Part shown: piece after piece, positions 19,123-45,597 of the stretch
Position numbering within the stretch: position 1 is the stretch's first letter
How the letters are laid out: every line of letters starts with the position of its first letter
Assembly: GCA_017962025.1 (NCBI GenBank)
Contig: JAGCWD010000123.1
Span: 24,219 to 88,218, forward strand
Length of the DNA: 64,000 nt
Origin: Bacteroidales bacterium
Lineage (GTDB): Bacteria; Bacteroidota; Bacteroidia; Bacteroidales; UBA932
Reading direction: 5' to 3'
Notes under the pieces: generated by a model
What the model saw: only the letters and a program-made list of their open reading frames with translations
Databases searched by the model: none
Told to the model about the DNA's origin: nothing
Translations under genes and position numbers: made by a program

Positions 19123-21162
19123 GTGAAAAGACTCTTTTGTTTGTCGGCGCTGCTGGTTGCTCTGGTAGTGCCAGGTTTTGTCATGTCTGCCCAGACCTGG
19201 TTTCTGGTAAAAGACGGAAGGGTCGTTTTTACTGATGGGACAGACACCCTCCGTACTCCGTCTGAAGGTCTGTGGTCTGTTGCTACCGGTTGGAAAGACG
19301 ACTGGATGAGCGATTGGACCCATGTAAAGGCAACTAAAGTTGAAAAAACGGGCGATTGGACAATCCTAAAAGGCTCTGCCGGATTCAAGGAAGGCGAGTT
19401 GGAACTTACGGATTCATATTCCGTGACTCCTGAAGGCTTGGTAAGGTGTGTCCGCCGTTTTGAGTGGACGGGAGAGGATACCCTTCGCAACGTGACCTTG
19501 TCGGTAAGGTTACAGGAAAAGGGGAACGGCCTGTCCCTGTTCGCCCCCGGGATCGTCTATTACGGCAACAAGAACGGAGCCTCGGTCAACCCCGAACTGA
19601 TAGCCACATGGGACAGCCGTCCTGGAGAGATAGCAGTTTTCGAAGATCACAGGTATCCAATGCCTTTCGTGATGCTTGAGAACCCCTCTTCCCTCAGGGC
19701 GGTTGCTGTACATACTACTCCGTCACCGGTCCGTGGGGCAGTCCTGTCGGATCAGTGGTGGTCGCTTGGCGCAGAGGCCCGCGATGGATTCACGGAGATA
19801 GTCATGTATTCGGGCCCTATCGGATACAATGGACACAAGAGCGCCGCAAAGGCCCGCCAAAGGACCTTTATGCGATATTCAGACACCTTCATCGACCTGG
19901 AGCCGGGAAGGGTGGTGGAGAAAGAGTATTATATCGATCTTTATGCCATCGCCCGCAAGGGAACCGGGTTCCAGAGACCGGTTTATACTTCCCTTGACTT
20001 TTACAAACCATATGATGCTGACCGATTTCCTTCTTTCAAGGAGATAGTGGACACCAAATACCGTTTTGCCCTGTCCCGCTGGATGGAAAATGATGTTGCG
20101 GCAGGCTTCGACATGTACGATTCGCGTTATTCCAGAAAGGACATTGTGATGGGTTGGTGTGGTCAGGCGGACTCTCCGGGCTATTCATTCCAGGTTCTTT
20201 CCAGCAGACTTAAGGATCCTTCAATTCACGAAAAGGTCCAGAGGAGCCTGGATTTCCTTACGGACTGCAAGTTCCTGGAAAACGGGTTGTTCGCTGTCAG
20301 ATATGATTTCCTTAAAGGAGGTTGGGACCAAGGTGACCCAGTCTCCTGCGGCCAGGCGATGTACAATTTTGCCAAGGCAATCGAAACCTCCCGAAGGACC
20401 GGGGAGTATAACACTTCTAAATGGGAAAAGTTCCTCCGTAAGGCCTGCGACGGCGTTTCCGACCTTATCCTTTCTAAAGAGTGGAACCCCAAGTCAACAG
20501 CAGAGGGATTCTATATCGCCCCTCTGGCCATCGCATCCGATCTGTTCCGCAACAGGCGTTACAGGCAAGCTGCGGAGAAAGCGGCCGGAGAGTTCGCTTC
20601 GAGGCATTTTGAGATGGACGGTTGTTACTGGGGAGGAACACTCGATGCTACCTGTGAGGACAAGGAAGGTTCCTGGGCAGCGTTCCAGGGATTCCTGGAA
20701 TGCTATGAAAGATTCCAGGACAAGAAGTATCTTGACTGGGCAAAGCATGCGATGGACGTATGCCTGAGCTATGTGGTTGTGTGGGATATTCCACTGCCTG
20801 CAGGACGGATGGCCGACCATAATTTCAAGACAACGGGATGGACTGTGGTTTCAGCACAGAACCAGCACATTGACGTGTACGGAGTTCTTTTTGCTCCGGA
20901 AGTCTGCAAAATGGGACGGTATCTGGGCGATGAGAGGCTGGTGAAACTGTCCAAGGTGATGTTCCGTACCTGTTTCCAGCTTACCGATGCTTACGGCAGC
21001 CAGGGAGAGCAGCTCCAGCACACCAATTTCGCCCAGCAAGGAGACATGTCAAATGTCCATAAACTTCGTGGAGGCTATTCAGAGCACTGGACTGTTTTCT
21101 GGATCACCACCCACTTCCTCAATGCTGCCGCCCGTTTCGTAGAGATGGGTGAAGACGTCTAA
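19123..21162 (+). CDS. Secreted protein with six-hairpin (alpha-toroid) domain, glycosidase-like
   Basis: 679 residues starting at GTG 19123, which begins a clear signal peptide (RLFCLSALLVALVVPGFVMSA). Residues about 25-300 are strand-rich, resembling the beta-sandwich N-terminal part of several polysaccharide-active enzymes. Residues about 310-670 are helical with the repeat pattern of an (alpha/alpha)6 toroid: YSFQVLSSRL, GGWDQGDPVSCGQAMYNFAK, GSWAAFQGFLECYERFQD, RMADHNFKTTGWTVVSAQNQ. Such folds occur in glycoside hydrolases and lyases. I cannot place it in a numbered family or name catalytic residues with confidence; conserved-looking Asp and His residues in DQGD and QHIDVYG are candidates. 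Confidence 0.62.
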   Translation: MKRLFCLSALLVALVVPGFVMSAQTWFLVKDGRVVFTDGTDTLRTPSEGLWSVATGWKDDWMSDWTHVKATKVEKTGDWTILKGSAGFKEGELELTDSYSVTPEGLVRCVRRFEWTGEDTLRNVTLSVRLQEKGNGLSLFAPGIVYYGNKNGASVNPELIATWDSRPGEIAVFEDHRYPMPFVMLENPSSLRAVAVHTTPSPVRGAVLSDQWWSLGAEARDGFTEIVMYSGPIGYNGHKSAAKARQRTFMRYSDTFIDLEPGRVVEKEYYIDLYAIARKGTGFQRPVYTSLDFYKPYDADRFPSFKEIVDTKYRFALSRWMENDVAAGFDMYDSRYSRKDIVMGWCGQADSPGYSFQVLSSRLKDPSIHEKVQRSLDFLTDCKFLENGLFAVRYDFLKGGWDQGDPVSCGQAMYNFAKAIETSRRTGEYNTSKWEKFLRKACDGVSDLILSKEWNPKSTAEGFYIAPLAIASDLFRNRRYRQAAEKAAGEFASRHFEMDGCYWGGTLDATCEDKEGSWAAFQGFLECYERFQDKKYLDWAKHAMDVCLSYVVVWDIPLPAGRMADHNFKTTGWTVVSAQNQHIDVYGVLFAPEVCKMGRYLGDERLVKLSKVMFRTCFQLTDAYGSQGEQLQHTNFAQQGDMSNVHKLRGGYSEHWTVFWITTHFLNAAARFVEMGEDV

Positions 21163-21926
21163 AGATGTCTTTGGCTGAATTCGCAGCCGCACCAGGTTTG
21201 GTTGTATAGGGCGCAGGACTTTATCAGGAAGTTCCTGCGCTCTTGCAGTCCGCCCTTTCTCCAGTTCTGCGGCCACCAGATCAGACGCGGCACATTTGCC
21301 TTGTCAGGAGAGGATATACCTCCCCGGGACGTCTCGCTTCGCTCGACCCCACCGCTCGCTTCGCTCTGCTCCGCTCCGGTCCCCCCTCTTAACGTGCCGA
21401 GGGTGGCAGTGCCCGGGGGAGGTATATCCTCTCCCGACAAAGAAGCAACGGCACGGCGACCGGCTTCATCGACTTGGGAGAAGACTTTCCAGCGGGAGGA
21501 TGCGAGGGTGGTGGTAAGGATGTCGTAGCCATGGGAAACGGCATATTCCGCTGCCCTGCGAAGCCTGAATTCAAAACAGGCAATGCAGCGCGGACCTCGC
21601 TCCGGCCCGGAGAGAGTACCTGTCGGAACACAGCGGGACTTTACGAAATCCAGCCAGGCATCGTGGTCATATTCATCATCTGTGACTTCCAGTCCGAAGG
21701 TGGCGGCGTAACGGGCGAGCTCGTCGCGGCGCTTGACATATTCATTGAATGGAACGATGTTCGAGTTGCTGAAATAGAGCCCTGGCCGCAGGCCTTCGTT
21801 AACCATCCATTCTAGGATGGCTGTAGAGCAGGGTCCGCAGCAGCAATGAAGCAGGATGCGATCCCTTTTCAGATCACACCCTTCCGGAAGCTCCGGTTTG
21901 AAAGTACAGCCATCAAAATGCTCCAT
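21159..21926 (-). CDS. queH: Epoxyqueuosine reductase QueH, with in-frame palindromic insertion
   Basis: 255 residues. QueH reduces epoxyqueuosine to queuosine in tRNA and contains iron and a 4Fe-4S cluster. The Cys ladder is complete: HCCCGPCS at 27-34, RCIACFEFRL around 113-122, and WCGCEFS at 245-251. Between AGRRAVA (residues 155-161) and ANVPRLIWWPQNWRKGGL lies an extra Pro/Gly/Ser/Glu-rich segment, residues about 163-209, absent from the family pattern as I know it. It is encoded exactly by the 140-bp inverted-repeat element at 21301-21440. The frame stays open, and the cluster ligands lie outside the insert, so the enzyme may still work. It converges on the toroid gene with a four-base overlap. 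Confidence 0.9.
   Translation of the reverse strand: MEHFDGCTFKPELPEGCDLKRDRILLHCCCGPCSTAILEWMVNEGLRPGLYFSNSNIVPFNEYVKRRDELARYAATFGLEVTDDEYDHDAWLDFVKSRCVPTGTLSGPERGPRCIACFEFRLRRAAEYAVSHGYDILTTTLASSRWKVFSQVDEAGRRAVASLSGEDIPPPGTATLGTLRGGTGAEQSEASGGVERSETSRGGISSPDKANVPRLIWWPQNWRKGGLQERRNFLIKSCALYNQTWCGCEFSQRHL
21301..21440. mobile_element. 140-bp palindromic element inserted in frame in queH
   Basis: The arms at 21301-21325 and 21416-21440 are inverted repeats matching at 24 of 25 positions (core GAGAGGATATACCTCCCC). They enclose 90 bp of high GC containing a 12-bp direct repeat CTCGCTTCGCTC at 21333-21344 and 21355-21366. The element adds about 47 codons without a stop in the queH frame. No clear target-site duplication is seen. 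Size and behaviour recall non-autonomous palindromic elements that insert into genes, such as Rickettsia palindromic elements or REP/MITE types; the family is unknown. Confidence 0.75.
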
Positions 21927-22037
21927 CCCTGTTTATTGGCACTGCTAAGATATCAATTATTTCATCTTTGCACAACGTTACATTTCAGCTATTCTTTCGT
22001 CATTAATGTGGCATTGGTATGATTTTTTCGTGAAAAG

Positions 22038-22069
22038 TGTTGCATTCTTGAAAAACATCCGTATATTTG
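22038..22069 (+). promoter_or_regulatory. Promoter of the ABC efflux operon
   Basis: TATATTTG at 22062-22069 is a perfect -7 box. TGTTG at 22038-22042 lies 19 bp upstream in the -33 position. The transcript would start near 22075, about 40 bases before the first ATG. The remaining gap (21927-22037) shows no gene. Confidence 0.65.
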
Positions 22070-22071
22070 CA

Positions 22072-22093
22072 GTGTATTAGTTTAGTAATACAC
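22072..22093. promoter_or_regulatory. Candidate operator palindrome at the ABC operon start site
   Basis: GTGTATTA (22072-22079) and TAATACAC (22086-22093) are perfect inverted repeats around a 6-base spacer, lying just downstream of the -7 box and over the expected transcription start. The geometry fits a dimeric repressor (GntR- or PadR-like operators have this look). No regulator gene is adjacent in the window. Confidence 0.55.
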
Positions 22094-22116
22094 AAAGAAA
22101 CAAACTGAATGAACGT

Positions 22117-22839
22117 ATGCTGATCGAGCTTAAAGACGTCAACAAGACATATTTCGGAGCGCAGCCGCTGCATGTACTGAAGGGAATAAACCTCAATATA
22201 GAAAGAGGTGAGTTCGTGTCCATTATGGGCGCTTCAGGCTCCGGCAAATCCACTCTCCTTAACATACTAGGTATCCTGGACAACTACGATTCGGGAGAAT
22301 ACCGTATCAACGGCAAACTCATCTGGGACCTTACGGAGTCCAAGGCCGCAGAGTATAGGAACAAGATGATAGGATTCATATTCCAGTCTTATAATCTTAT
22401 AGGTTTCAAGACGGCGGTCGAGAACGTCGAACTTCCTCTTTTCTATCAGGGAGTGAGCCGCCACAAACGCCATGAGATGGCCATGGAATACATCGAGCGT
22501 CTAGGACTTAAGGATTGGGCGGGGCACTATCCCAACGAGATGTCCGGAGGCCAGAAGCAAAGGGTCGCCATCGCCAGGGCCCTTGTCACAAAGCCTGACA
22601 TTATCCTGGCTGACGAGCCAACGGGAGCCCTTGACTCCAAGACTTCTATCGAAATCATGGACCTTCTCAAAGAACTCAATGAGAGGGAAAAACTCACGAT
22701 AATCGTCGTCACCCATGAGAGTGGCGTGGCAAACTACACCAACAGGATAATCCACATCAAGGACGGAGTCATTGGTCAGATTGAAGAAAACCGTGCCCAT
22801 GATTCCGTAAGGTTTGGAAGCGAAGGAATGCTCAAATAG
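22117..22839 (+). CDS. ABC transporter ATP-binding protein (MacB/LolD type)
   Basis: 240 residues. It is a complete nucleotide-binding domain: Walker A GASGSGKST near 38-46, Q-loop in FIFQSYNLIG, signature MSGGQKQRVAIARAL near 142-156, Walker B IILADEPTGALDSK, and the His switch in VVTHES. The Q-loop and EPTGALD form are typical of the MacB/LolD/FtsE group that powers mechanotransmission rather than classical transport. First gene of a five-gene operon with two FtsX-fold permeases, a periplasmic adaptor and a TolC-like channel. Confidence 0.96.
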   Translation: MLIELKDVNKTYFGAQPLHVLKGINLNIERGEFVSIMGASGSGKSTLLNILGILDNYDSGEYRINGKLIWDLTESKAAEYRNKMIGFIFQSYNLIGFKTAVENVELPLFYQGVSRHKRHEMAMEYIERLGLKDWAGHYPNEMSGGQKQRVAIARALVTKPDIILADEPTGALDSKTSIEIMDLLKELNEREKLTIIVVTHESGVANYTNRIIHIKDGVIGQIEENRAHDSVRFGSEGMLK

Positions 22840-44746: not shown

Positions 44747-45597
44747 TTCTCCGGACAAATGTGAAGCTGAACTTCGGGCTGAACGTGATTCGAAAACGGC
44801 CTGATGGCTACCATGACATCGAGACTCTTTTCGTCCCGTGCCATGAGTTCGGAGACACGCTGGAGGTAATCACCGGTGATGACTACAGCCGTACTTCGGC
44901 TTCCTTGTTCGGCCGCTATGGTTCAGTTGCACAGGGAATCTCTGAGGATGGTAAATTGATGATCTCTATTGCAAAGGACGAAGGTATTGACTGGGATCCG
45001 CTTAAGGATCTCTGTGCCAAGGCATATTATCTCCTGGCAGAAGATTTCAAGCTGCCGCCGGTAAAGATATTCCTTGAAAAGACGGCTCCCGTAGGAGCGG
45101 GGCTTGGAGGCGGATCTGCCGATGCCGCTTTCACCCTGAAGGCACTGAACGAAATCTGCGCCCTTGGCCTTTCGGAAGAGAGGCTTTCTGAATATGCTTC
45201 CAGACTCGGCAGCGACTGCGCTTTCTTTATCTGGAACCGTCCCATGTTCGGCACGGGCCGTGGCGAAATACTGGAACCGTTCGATTTGGACCTTTCTGGC
45301 TATGAAGTCAAGGTCCTTGTCCCCGAGGGCATCTCCGTTTCTACCAAGGAGGCATATGATGGCATCATTCCAAGAAGTTCCGTCGAGGGACCTATAGTCC
45401 CTTTGATGGACTTGAAGGAGGCTTTGATGCAGCCCGTTGAGGAGTGGAAGGGATTGGTGGTCAATGATTTCGAGACAACGGTGTTCAAGAAGCATCCGGA
45501 GCTTGCAGCAATTAAACAGTCCCTTTATGACAGCGGGGCAGTATATGCTGCGATGTCAGGATCCGGATCAGCTGTTTTTGCTCTGTACAGGAAATAA
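44743..45597 (+). CDS. ispE: 4-diphosphocytidyl-2-C-methyl-D-erythritol kinase
   Basis: 284 residues, a GHMP kinase that phosphorylates CDP-ME in the MEP pathway. Marks: RTNVKLNFGLNVIRKRPDGYHDIETLF with the substrate Lys/Asn/Tyr-His region, the ATP loop PVGAGLGGGSADAA near 108-121, and SGSGSAVFAL at the C-terminus. The ATG overlaps the sufD stop by four bases, putting an isoprenoid gene in the suf transcript; IspG and IspH in this pathway are Fe-S enzymes, which may explain the link. Confidence 0.95.
   Translation: MILRTNVKLNFGLNVIRKRPDGYHDIETLFVPCHEFGDTLEVITGDDYSRTSASLFGRYGSVAQGISEDGKLMISIAKDEGIDWDPLKDLCAKAYYLLAEDFKLPPVKIFLEKTAPVGAGLGGGSADAAFTLKALNEICALGLSEERLSEYASRLGSDCAFFIWNRPMFGTGRGEILEPFDLDLSGYEVKVLVPEGISVSTKEAYDGIIPRSSVEGPIVPLMDLKEALMQPVEEWKGLVVNDFETTVFKKHPELAAIKQSLYDSGAVYAAMSGSGSAVFALYRK

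Follow-up and report, generated by a model that had tools for sequence, protein, structure and literature searches.

A dispersed palindromic element inserted in frame in queH and other conserved genes of uncultured Bacteroidales

The palindromic segment in queH

The window, i.e. the whole 64,000-nucleotide stretch of Bacteroidales DNA analysed here, carries on its minus strand the gene queH (21159..21926), which encodes an epoxyqueuosine reductase of 255 amino acids. A palindromic element occupies positions 21301-21440 within this gene, as one copy in the window, and the reading frame stays open across it. The two 28-nt arms, arm A (21301..21328, plus strand, on the C-terminal side in QueH) and arm B (21413..21440, minus strand, on the N-terminal side), are 93% complementary and are spaced by 84 nt. 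The palindrome reported in the initial annotation is thus real, with these measured lengths replacing the arms of 25 bp and the spacer of 90 bp given there. A search of the window with an 18-nt arm pattern, allowing up to three mismatches, finds only the two arm sites (chance mean 0.05). Between the arms lies the conserved core (21329..21412), which reads ACTGCCACCCTCGGCACGTTAAGAGGGGGGACCG..CGGTGGGGTCGAGCGAAGCGAGAC on the minus strand; a direct repeat, CTCGCTTCGCTC, is found inside the element at 21333 and 21355. The core matches model R1 over 21330-21410 with 82.2 bits, the copy itself being part of the model. The minus strand between 21290 and 21450 folds as RNA to -86.2 kcal/mol compared to -60.8 (sd 4.1) for shuffled sequences, corresponding to a z of -6.2. 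Scanning 20800-22200 against Rfam at E values up to 1 gave no family above its gathering score, the sole match being MIR839 with 25.1 bits against a cut-off of 200.

The QueH family of Pfam matches the window protein in two stretches (E 3.7e-47), the best of which spans residues 24-161, and solved QueH chains align to it at residues 23-157 and 219-251. Between these conserved blocks we count 61 residues in the window QueH compared to 11 in a solved QueH chain. An alignment of 14 QueH stretches from the genus contains no invariant position at residues 157-217, and the invariant positions lie outside the insert-bearing loop. The open 255-residue frame and both kinds of alignment agree with the earlier claim that the insert lies in frame inside an intact queH, between conserved blocks. 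Judged from sequence, the conserved residues of QueH are retained and the loop has gained some 45 extra residues.

Comparison of queH covered 11 of 12 loci, with G386 left out. The element fills the site in G000, G033 and G212. Seven genomes are without such an insert (G096, G066, G408, G017, G235, G422 and G114), and G073, whose frame exceeds that of G017 by 44 residues, holds a different one. That relatives might lack the segment therefore holds for eight of them, and G033 and G212 carry it as well. In a wider comparison of the queH loop, covering 20 of 30 loci, other inserts occupy the same loop in several further members of the genus, which identifies it as a hot spot. The queH loops of G023 and G071 (L091 and L085) contain a different repeat peptide, SAPVLGP.VASEG.ARPGVFEG.

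Copies in other genes and genomes

A DNA search of the genome from which the window derives returned 32 rows, representing about 28 distinct places, and the RNA model found 24 places in the same genome. The further copies anticipated in the initial annotation are thus numerous, but it is the core that these places have in common, with arms that are almost entirely place-specific. Within the genus 18 of 37 genomes, our own included, match the element at E 0.01. Altogether 61 genomes were searched at this threshold and 19 match, with one weak match among the 24 from outside the genus. G033 has 19 matches, and G066 and G212 have 30 match rows each. With stricter filters, the covariance model matches three of 198 genomes of the order, namely our own, one from another genus of the same family (2 matches) and G576, which belongs to another family (16 matches). 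The exact core pattern is present in at least 118 stretches of public species genomes. All 80 titled stretches among the matches listed are from Bacteroidales or Bacteroidia, with no Rickettsiales, and many titles among the matches listed refer to the stomachs of goat, sheep, buffalo or deer. The assignment of the queH segment to a dispersed, non-autonomous palindromic family of uncultured Bacteroidales is well supported.

Many copies lie in frame within long open frames, in both orientations, and some lie outside long open frames. Host genes with in-frame copies include miaA, purH, ispE, trmB, purD, metH, uvrA, fmt, aroC and ksgA, among others, where names such as miaA, trmB, ispE and fmt are a reading from Pfam matches and translations. 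A Pfam family is matched at 1e-8 by 19 of 20 host proteins, the families including chorismate synthase, IPP transferase, AICARFT, phosphoribosylglycinamide synthetase, class-III aminotransferase, B12-dependent methionine synthase, UvrA, formyl transferase, RrnaAD, TrmO and SpoU methylase; the one protein with no Pfam match at this threshold is L023, read as mannose-6-phosphate isomerase. The further copies, the Pfam-recognised hosts with in-frame inserts and the presence or absence of the insert in queH bear out the proposal of a dispersed non-autonomous palindromic element that has turned into protein sequence. The hot-spot pattern of queH also applies to miaA, purH, ispE, trmB, fmt, ksgA and aroC.

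Across species, a given site is found filled, turned, core-less or empty. At trmB, miaA, fmt and aroC the core points one way in some species and the other way in others. One core type is present at both argD and purD in G000 and another at both genes in G033. In G087 the copies L170-L183 have an array-like arrangement, and L175 and L182 combine left and right arms that belong to different copies; these mixed arms look as if they had recombined through the core. An exchange of cores between copies is suggested by the argD and purD types and by the mixed arms of G087. A segment of about 310-350 bp that carries elements lies in opposite orientations in G066 and G212 (L300/L301 and L302/L303).

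Core-less sites are exemplified in the window by ispE, in which a short palindrome, GAGGGACCTATAGTCCCTTT (45385..45404, plus strand), stands where six relatives have a full element; it is probably a remnant without the core. In trmO and aroC of G066, short palindromes equal the expected product of a deletion between TGCCAG or TGGT repeats, with the filled sites in G300 and G212 taken as reference. The missing part is bounded by TGGT in aroC and by TGCCAG in trmO, and both sites look like scars. Element-free relatives have no palindrome at these positions (G073 and G096 for trmO; G114, G422, G386 and G000 for aroC). The aroC insertion is common to G073, G017 and G212, and since G073 and G017 share it, the G066 site is better read as a scar.

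The initial annotation had also proposed mobility. Dispersal of the element is evident, whereas the search for a close pre-insertion site yielded none, the two closest empty sites (G066/G212) being better read as scars, and no Y1 transposase partner emerged. REP sequences flank RAYT genes. Each of the 12 genomes searched has 2-5 matches to Y1 genes. Among 30 Y1 loci read, two contain a copy of the element, at a distance of about 1.1 kb on one side and without flanking the gene; both copies lie in the ksgA region. A REP/RAYT model was set aside, as the Y1 genes are present but unflanked by copies. A Y1 (RAYT-like) gene is located about 1-4 kb from ksgA in nine of 11 genomes (e.g. G000:C73, G033:C8 and G212:C17), and the only copies observed near Y1 genes are those in ksgA.

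Structure of the core and pairing of the arms

On the strand opposite the window the core reads TGCC-A-CCCTC-GGCA-n-TAA-GAGGG, followed by the hairpins P3 and P2. Helix S1 (TGCC/GGCA; 21395..21408, minus strand) joins 21405-21408 with 21395-21398 around the loop ACCCTC and shows covariation. Helix S2 (CCCTC/GAGGG; 21384..21403, minus strand) joins 21399-21403 with 21384-21388 and is nearly invariant, a two-sided change being seen for one pair in one sequence. Together the two helices have the predicted layout of an H-type pseudoknot, for which the linker lengths look workable. P3 (21351..21380, minus strand) is closed by ACCG/CGGT, pairing 21377-21380 with 21351-21354, and has a variable end. 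In L012, L160 and L162 it is enlarged by an extra hairpin of 30-40 nt, perhaps one element nested in another. P2 (GTC-GA-GC-GAA-GC-GA-GAC; 21331..21347, minus strand) carries a GNA triloop at 21338-21340, and the triloop is GNA in 44 of the 49 found in 61 rows.

In 26 sequences the named structure is paired in 90.5% of cells compared to 83.8% in shuffles, and two-sided changes of the core amount to 28 cells compared to 8.1 in shuffles. Slid versions of the structure are 35-55% paired. The number of pair types, 11 compared to 11.6 in shuffles, shows no excess.

Folding favours the strand opposite the window strand in 77 of 79 copies under RNA parameters and in 74 of 79 under DNA parameters; for these and the following mismatch counts three of 82 copies, with an arm score under 23, were left out. 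Mismatches in the outer arms, read on the window strand, comprise 49 A.C and 19 G.T (p 3.6e-4), counts that overstate independence given that copies are related. The A.C excess represents wobble pairs on the opposite strand and has the same direction in four of four context groups. At the eight positions adjoining the core, which were set aside post hoc after a recurrent mismatch had been noticed there, the counts are 10 and 10, and for all positions together they are 59 and 29. With one vote per locus the bias is 33 to 12 (p 0.0025), and for the G066/G212 loci alone it is 12 to 6. This strand bias tracks the element, independent of the direction of the host gene. It suggests a role at some stage for the minus-strand core in single-stranded form, be it RNA or ssDNA. 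In DNA, both C(GNA)G loops and tandem GA pairs have exceptional stability, and they suit ssDNA too. A structure on the sense strand was also considered and set aside, as folding is weaker and the pseudoknot would be strained by our reading of the linker lengths.

The arms of a copy pair with each other far better than with those of other copies, with a median score of 41 for own arms (82 copies) compared to a median of 10 and a 99th percentile of 21 for cross pairs (n=600). For nine locus pairs with cores at least 97% alike the arms are 45-65% alike, against a background median of 50%, and the top arm identity among 21 locus pairs with cores at least 95% alike is 0.80. A pattern search for an arm-like motif found nothing. 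The terminal inverted repeats are mostly unshared in G000 and G033 and are shared in subfamily A (G066 and G212) and in G576. In subfamily A, the inner 14-bp arms are common to 12 copies at nine loci (hand count), and the adjoining 10 bp on the outer side differ from locus to locus but still pair within a copy (8.4 of 10 positions compared to 4.7 across loci). G576 has two subfamilies with arms of about 20 bp that are constant at many places, beyond which complementarity is absent or extends for a few bases, as judged by eye. Arms are thus not always private, being shared in subfamily A and G576 and reaching an identity of 0.80 elsewhere, and inner arms can travel, with private stem being added or rewritten locally. 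In the G576 copies L488-L497 the near-constant arms are AAGGAATATGCTTT.. and GGCAGGTTGCCCCGGGCAAACC.., and oppositely oriented neighbours 60-140 bp apart occur four times.

At orthologous sites, 939 arm columns are unchanged, 459 are changed on both sides and 154 are unpaired in one copy, as sums across species pairs that are not independent of one another, from 10 of 13 loci; GH3, purD and argD were excluded because at least one copy falls under the arm-score cut-off of 30. In the same-orientation pairs checked the core is more alike than the host flanks. For trmB of G386 and G235, the core agrees at 79 of 81 positions and the flanks at 136 of 174, with 16 arm columns the same, 8 compensated and 0 broken. 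Of two sites compared between G087 and G098, a more closely related pair, the first has an identical core with 0 compensated and 3 unpaired arm columns, and the other has 6 compensated arm changes and a core agreeing at 68 of 71 positions. The outer arm pair in aroC is GTCGTTGCC/GGCAACGAC in G073 compared to GTCGCCGCC/GGTGGCGAC in G212, with neighbouring bases changed on both arms from TT/AA to CC/GG.

In uvrA of G027 the outer arm is complementary at 14 of 14 positions to the codons for FSSRF, a stretch that aligns with F/Y-S/T-N-K/R-F in four relatives. Among the arms, this is the most convincing trace of host sequence. L034 has an outer match of 18 of 18. Insertion might always generate the arms as an inverted copy of the target; this view, which arose from aroC of G066 and G212, was abandoned, being weakened by the inner arms common to loci in subfamily A and by the reading of the G066 aroC site as a scar.

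Spread and maintenance of the hairpins

We consider it probable that the family is a mobile hairpin resembling the Rickettsia palindromic elements (RPE), in which the core and inner arms spread and the arms are rewritten by fold-back (template-switch) copying. The travelling unit would be short and folded, consisting of the core folded on one strand (pseudoknot and two hairpins) and inner arms able to move with it; transposition would disperse it, and copies in genes would survive where they are in frame in tolerant loops. After insertion, fold-back copying during replication would transfer a change from one arm to the other, may run on into host sequence and may turn the core round. Deletion between short direct repeats of the arms would drop the core and leave a palindromic scar. 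The compensated arm changes could instead come from selection on the stem. More tentatively, the family may be a distinct class of mobile hairpin in which a strand-specific folded core (RNA or ssDNA) is what is transmitted, with each insertion growing its own matching stem by fold-back copying at its host site, even from conserved host codons, and the same copying rewriting that stem continually thereafter.

An ordinary element of the MITE or RPE type, with arms brought from the donor and pairing maintained by selection on the folded RNA or DNA, would need no special copying. It accommodates the arms common to loci in subfamily A and G576, and covarying core helices and a strand bias are expected of a selected structure. 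We nevertheless regard it as rather doubtful, given the uvrA outer arm complementary to host codons, the adjacent double change in aroC and the fact that the arms are much more diverged than the core and still paired. It is unlikely that the copies at one site reflect independent insertions into the same hot loops, as opposed to inherited copies with changing arms: the loops of queH, aroC, ksgA and fmt do accept many unrelated inserts and orientation differs among species, but the arms are recognisable across species at one and the same site (queH in G000 and G033; aroC in G073, G017 and G212).

The independence of the strand bias from gene direction, as well as the conserved core with covarying helices and a pseudoknot layout on the minus strand, would also be consistent with a retro-element, in which a minus-strand core RNA, perhaps a ribozyme, is copied into DNA and fold-back makes the second arm. 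GNA triloops and tandem GA pairs fit ssDNA equally, however, and this origin seems to us quite improbable. A non-mobile origin, by local low-complexity coding expansion or as terminator hairpins, is scarcely credible. The encoded peptide is of low complexity and some copies lie outside long open frames, but one and the same covarying core recurs, in either orientation, in dozens of unrelated genes.

The RPE-like mobile hairpin that we favour can be compared with several known systems. RPE are described, in passages of PMC2229807, as geneless dispersed elements of 105-146 bp that lie in intergenic regions and in frame in conserved genes. Like RPE and their Wolbachia counterparts, the Bacteroidales elements are dispersed palindromes of 100-150 bp in intergenic and in-frame genic positions, the latter in conserved genes. 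They differ from RPE in belonging to another phylum and in having a strand-specific core with a pseudoknot layout. Moreover, their arms stay paired while diverging, whereas RPE are said, in a part of PMC6649704, to lose repeat identity with time. The same part describes inverted repeats in coding genes of Nematomorpha mitochondria, with arms maintained together and template switching discussed. The jointly maintained arms within coding genes are common to both cases; in Nematomorpha both arms encode conserved protein, and a repeated core is not mentioned in that part of PMC6649704. In-frame fusions are reported for ERIC and the Yersinia palindromic sequence (passages of PMC2229807). These two, Correia and REP/RAYT are, so far as the passages go, likewise small non-autonomous repeats with inverted ends, but arms in the queH genus are largely unshared and the Y1 genes are unflanked. 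Template switching is described as homogenising arms and inverting spacers (in a part of PMC8604942) and as creating and mending stems (in a part of PMC8794818). It is a mutational process and not an element, and in the present case its substrate would be a mobile unit. Among the papers listed in a literature search limited to open-licence work, none describes such elements in Bacteroidales.

Rickettsia is the best-known source of palindromic elements lying in frame in conserved genes. The family described here is large and belongs to a species-rich gut Bacteroidales lineage, where a given site is filled in one species and reversed, replaced, scarred or empty in others. Two questions are therefore open to plain comparison, i.e. 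whether template switching preserves the pairing of long hairpins through evolution and by what route selfish hairpins become protein sequence. The strand bias provides a handle on a putative hidden single-stranded stage, and the family as a whole offers a test case for the spread and integrity of hairpins within coding DNA.

Further in-frame inserts were observed in some of the host genes. A second, shorter hairpin, CATCCTGAGCGAAGCGAAGGATC, occurs in purH, fmt and ksgA (L121, L222, L253, L257 and L259), where it encodes the peptide ILSEAKDL or ILSEAKNL; its top, GA-GC-GAA-GC-GA, is common with the core hairpin. Another in-frame insert, with a peptide like STPLHPQGGLRGVPLRH, is located in the ksgA and aroC loops (L062, L263 and L324).
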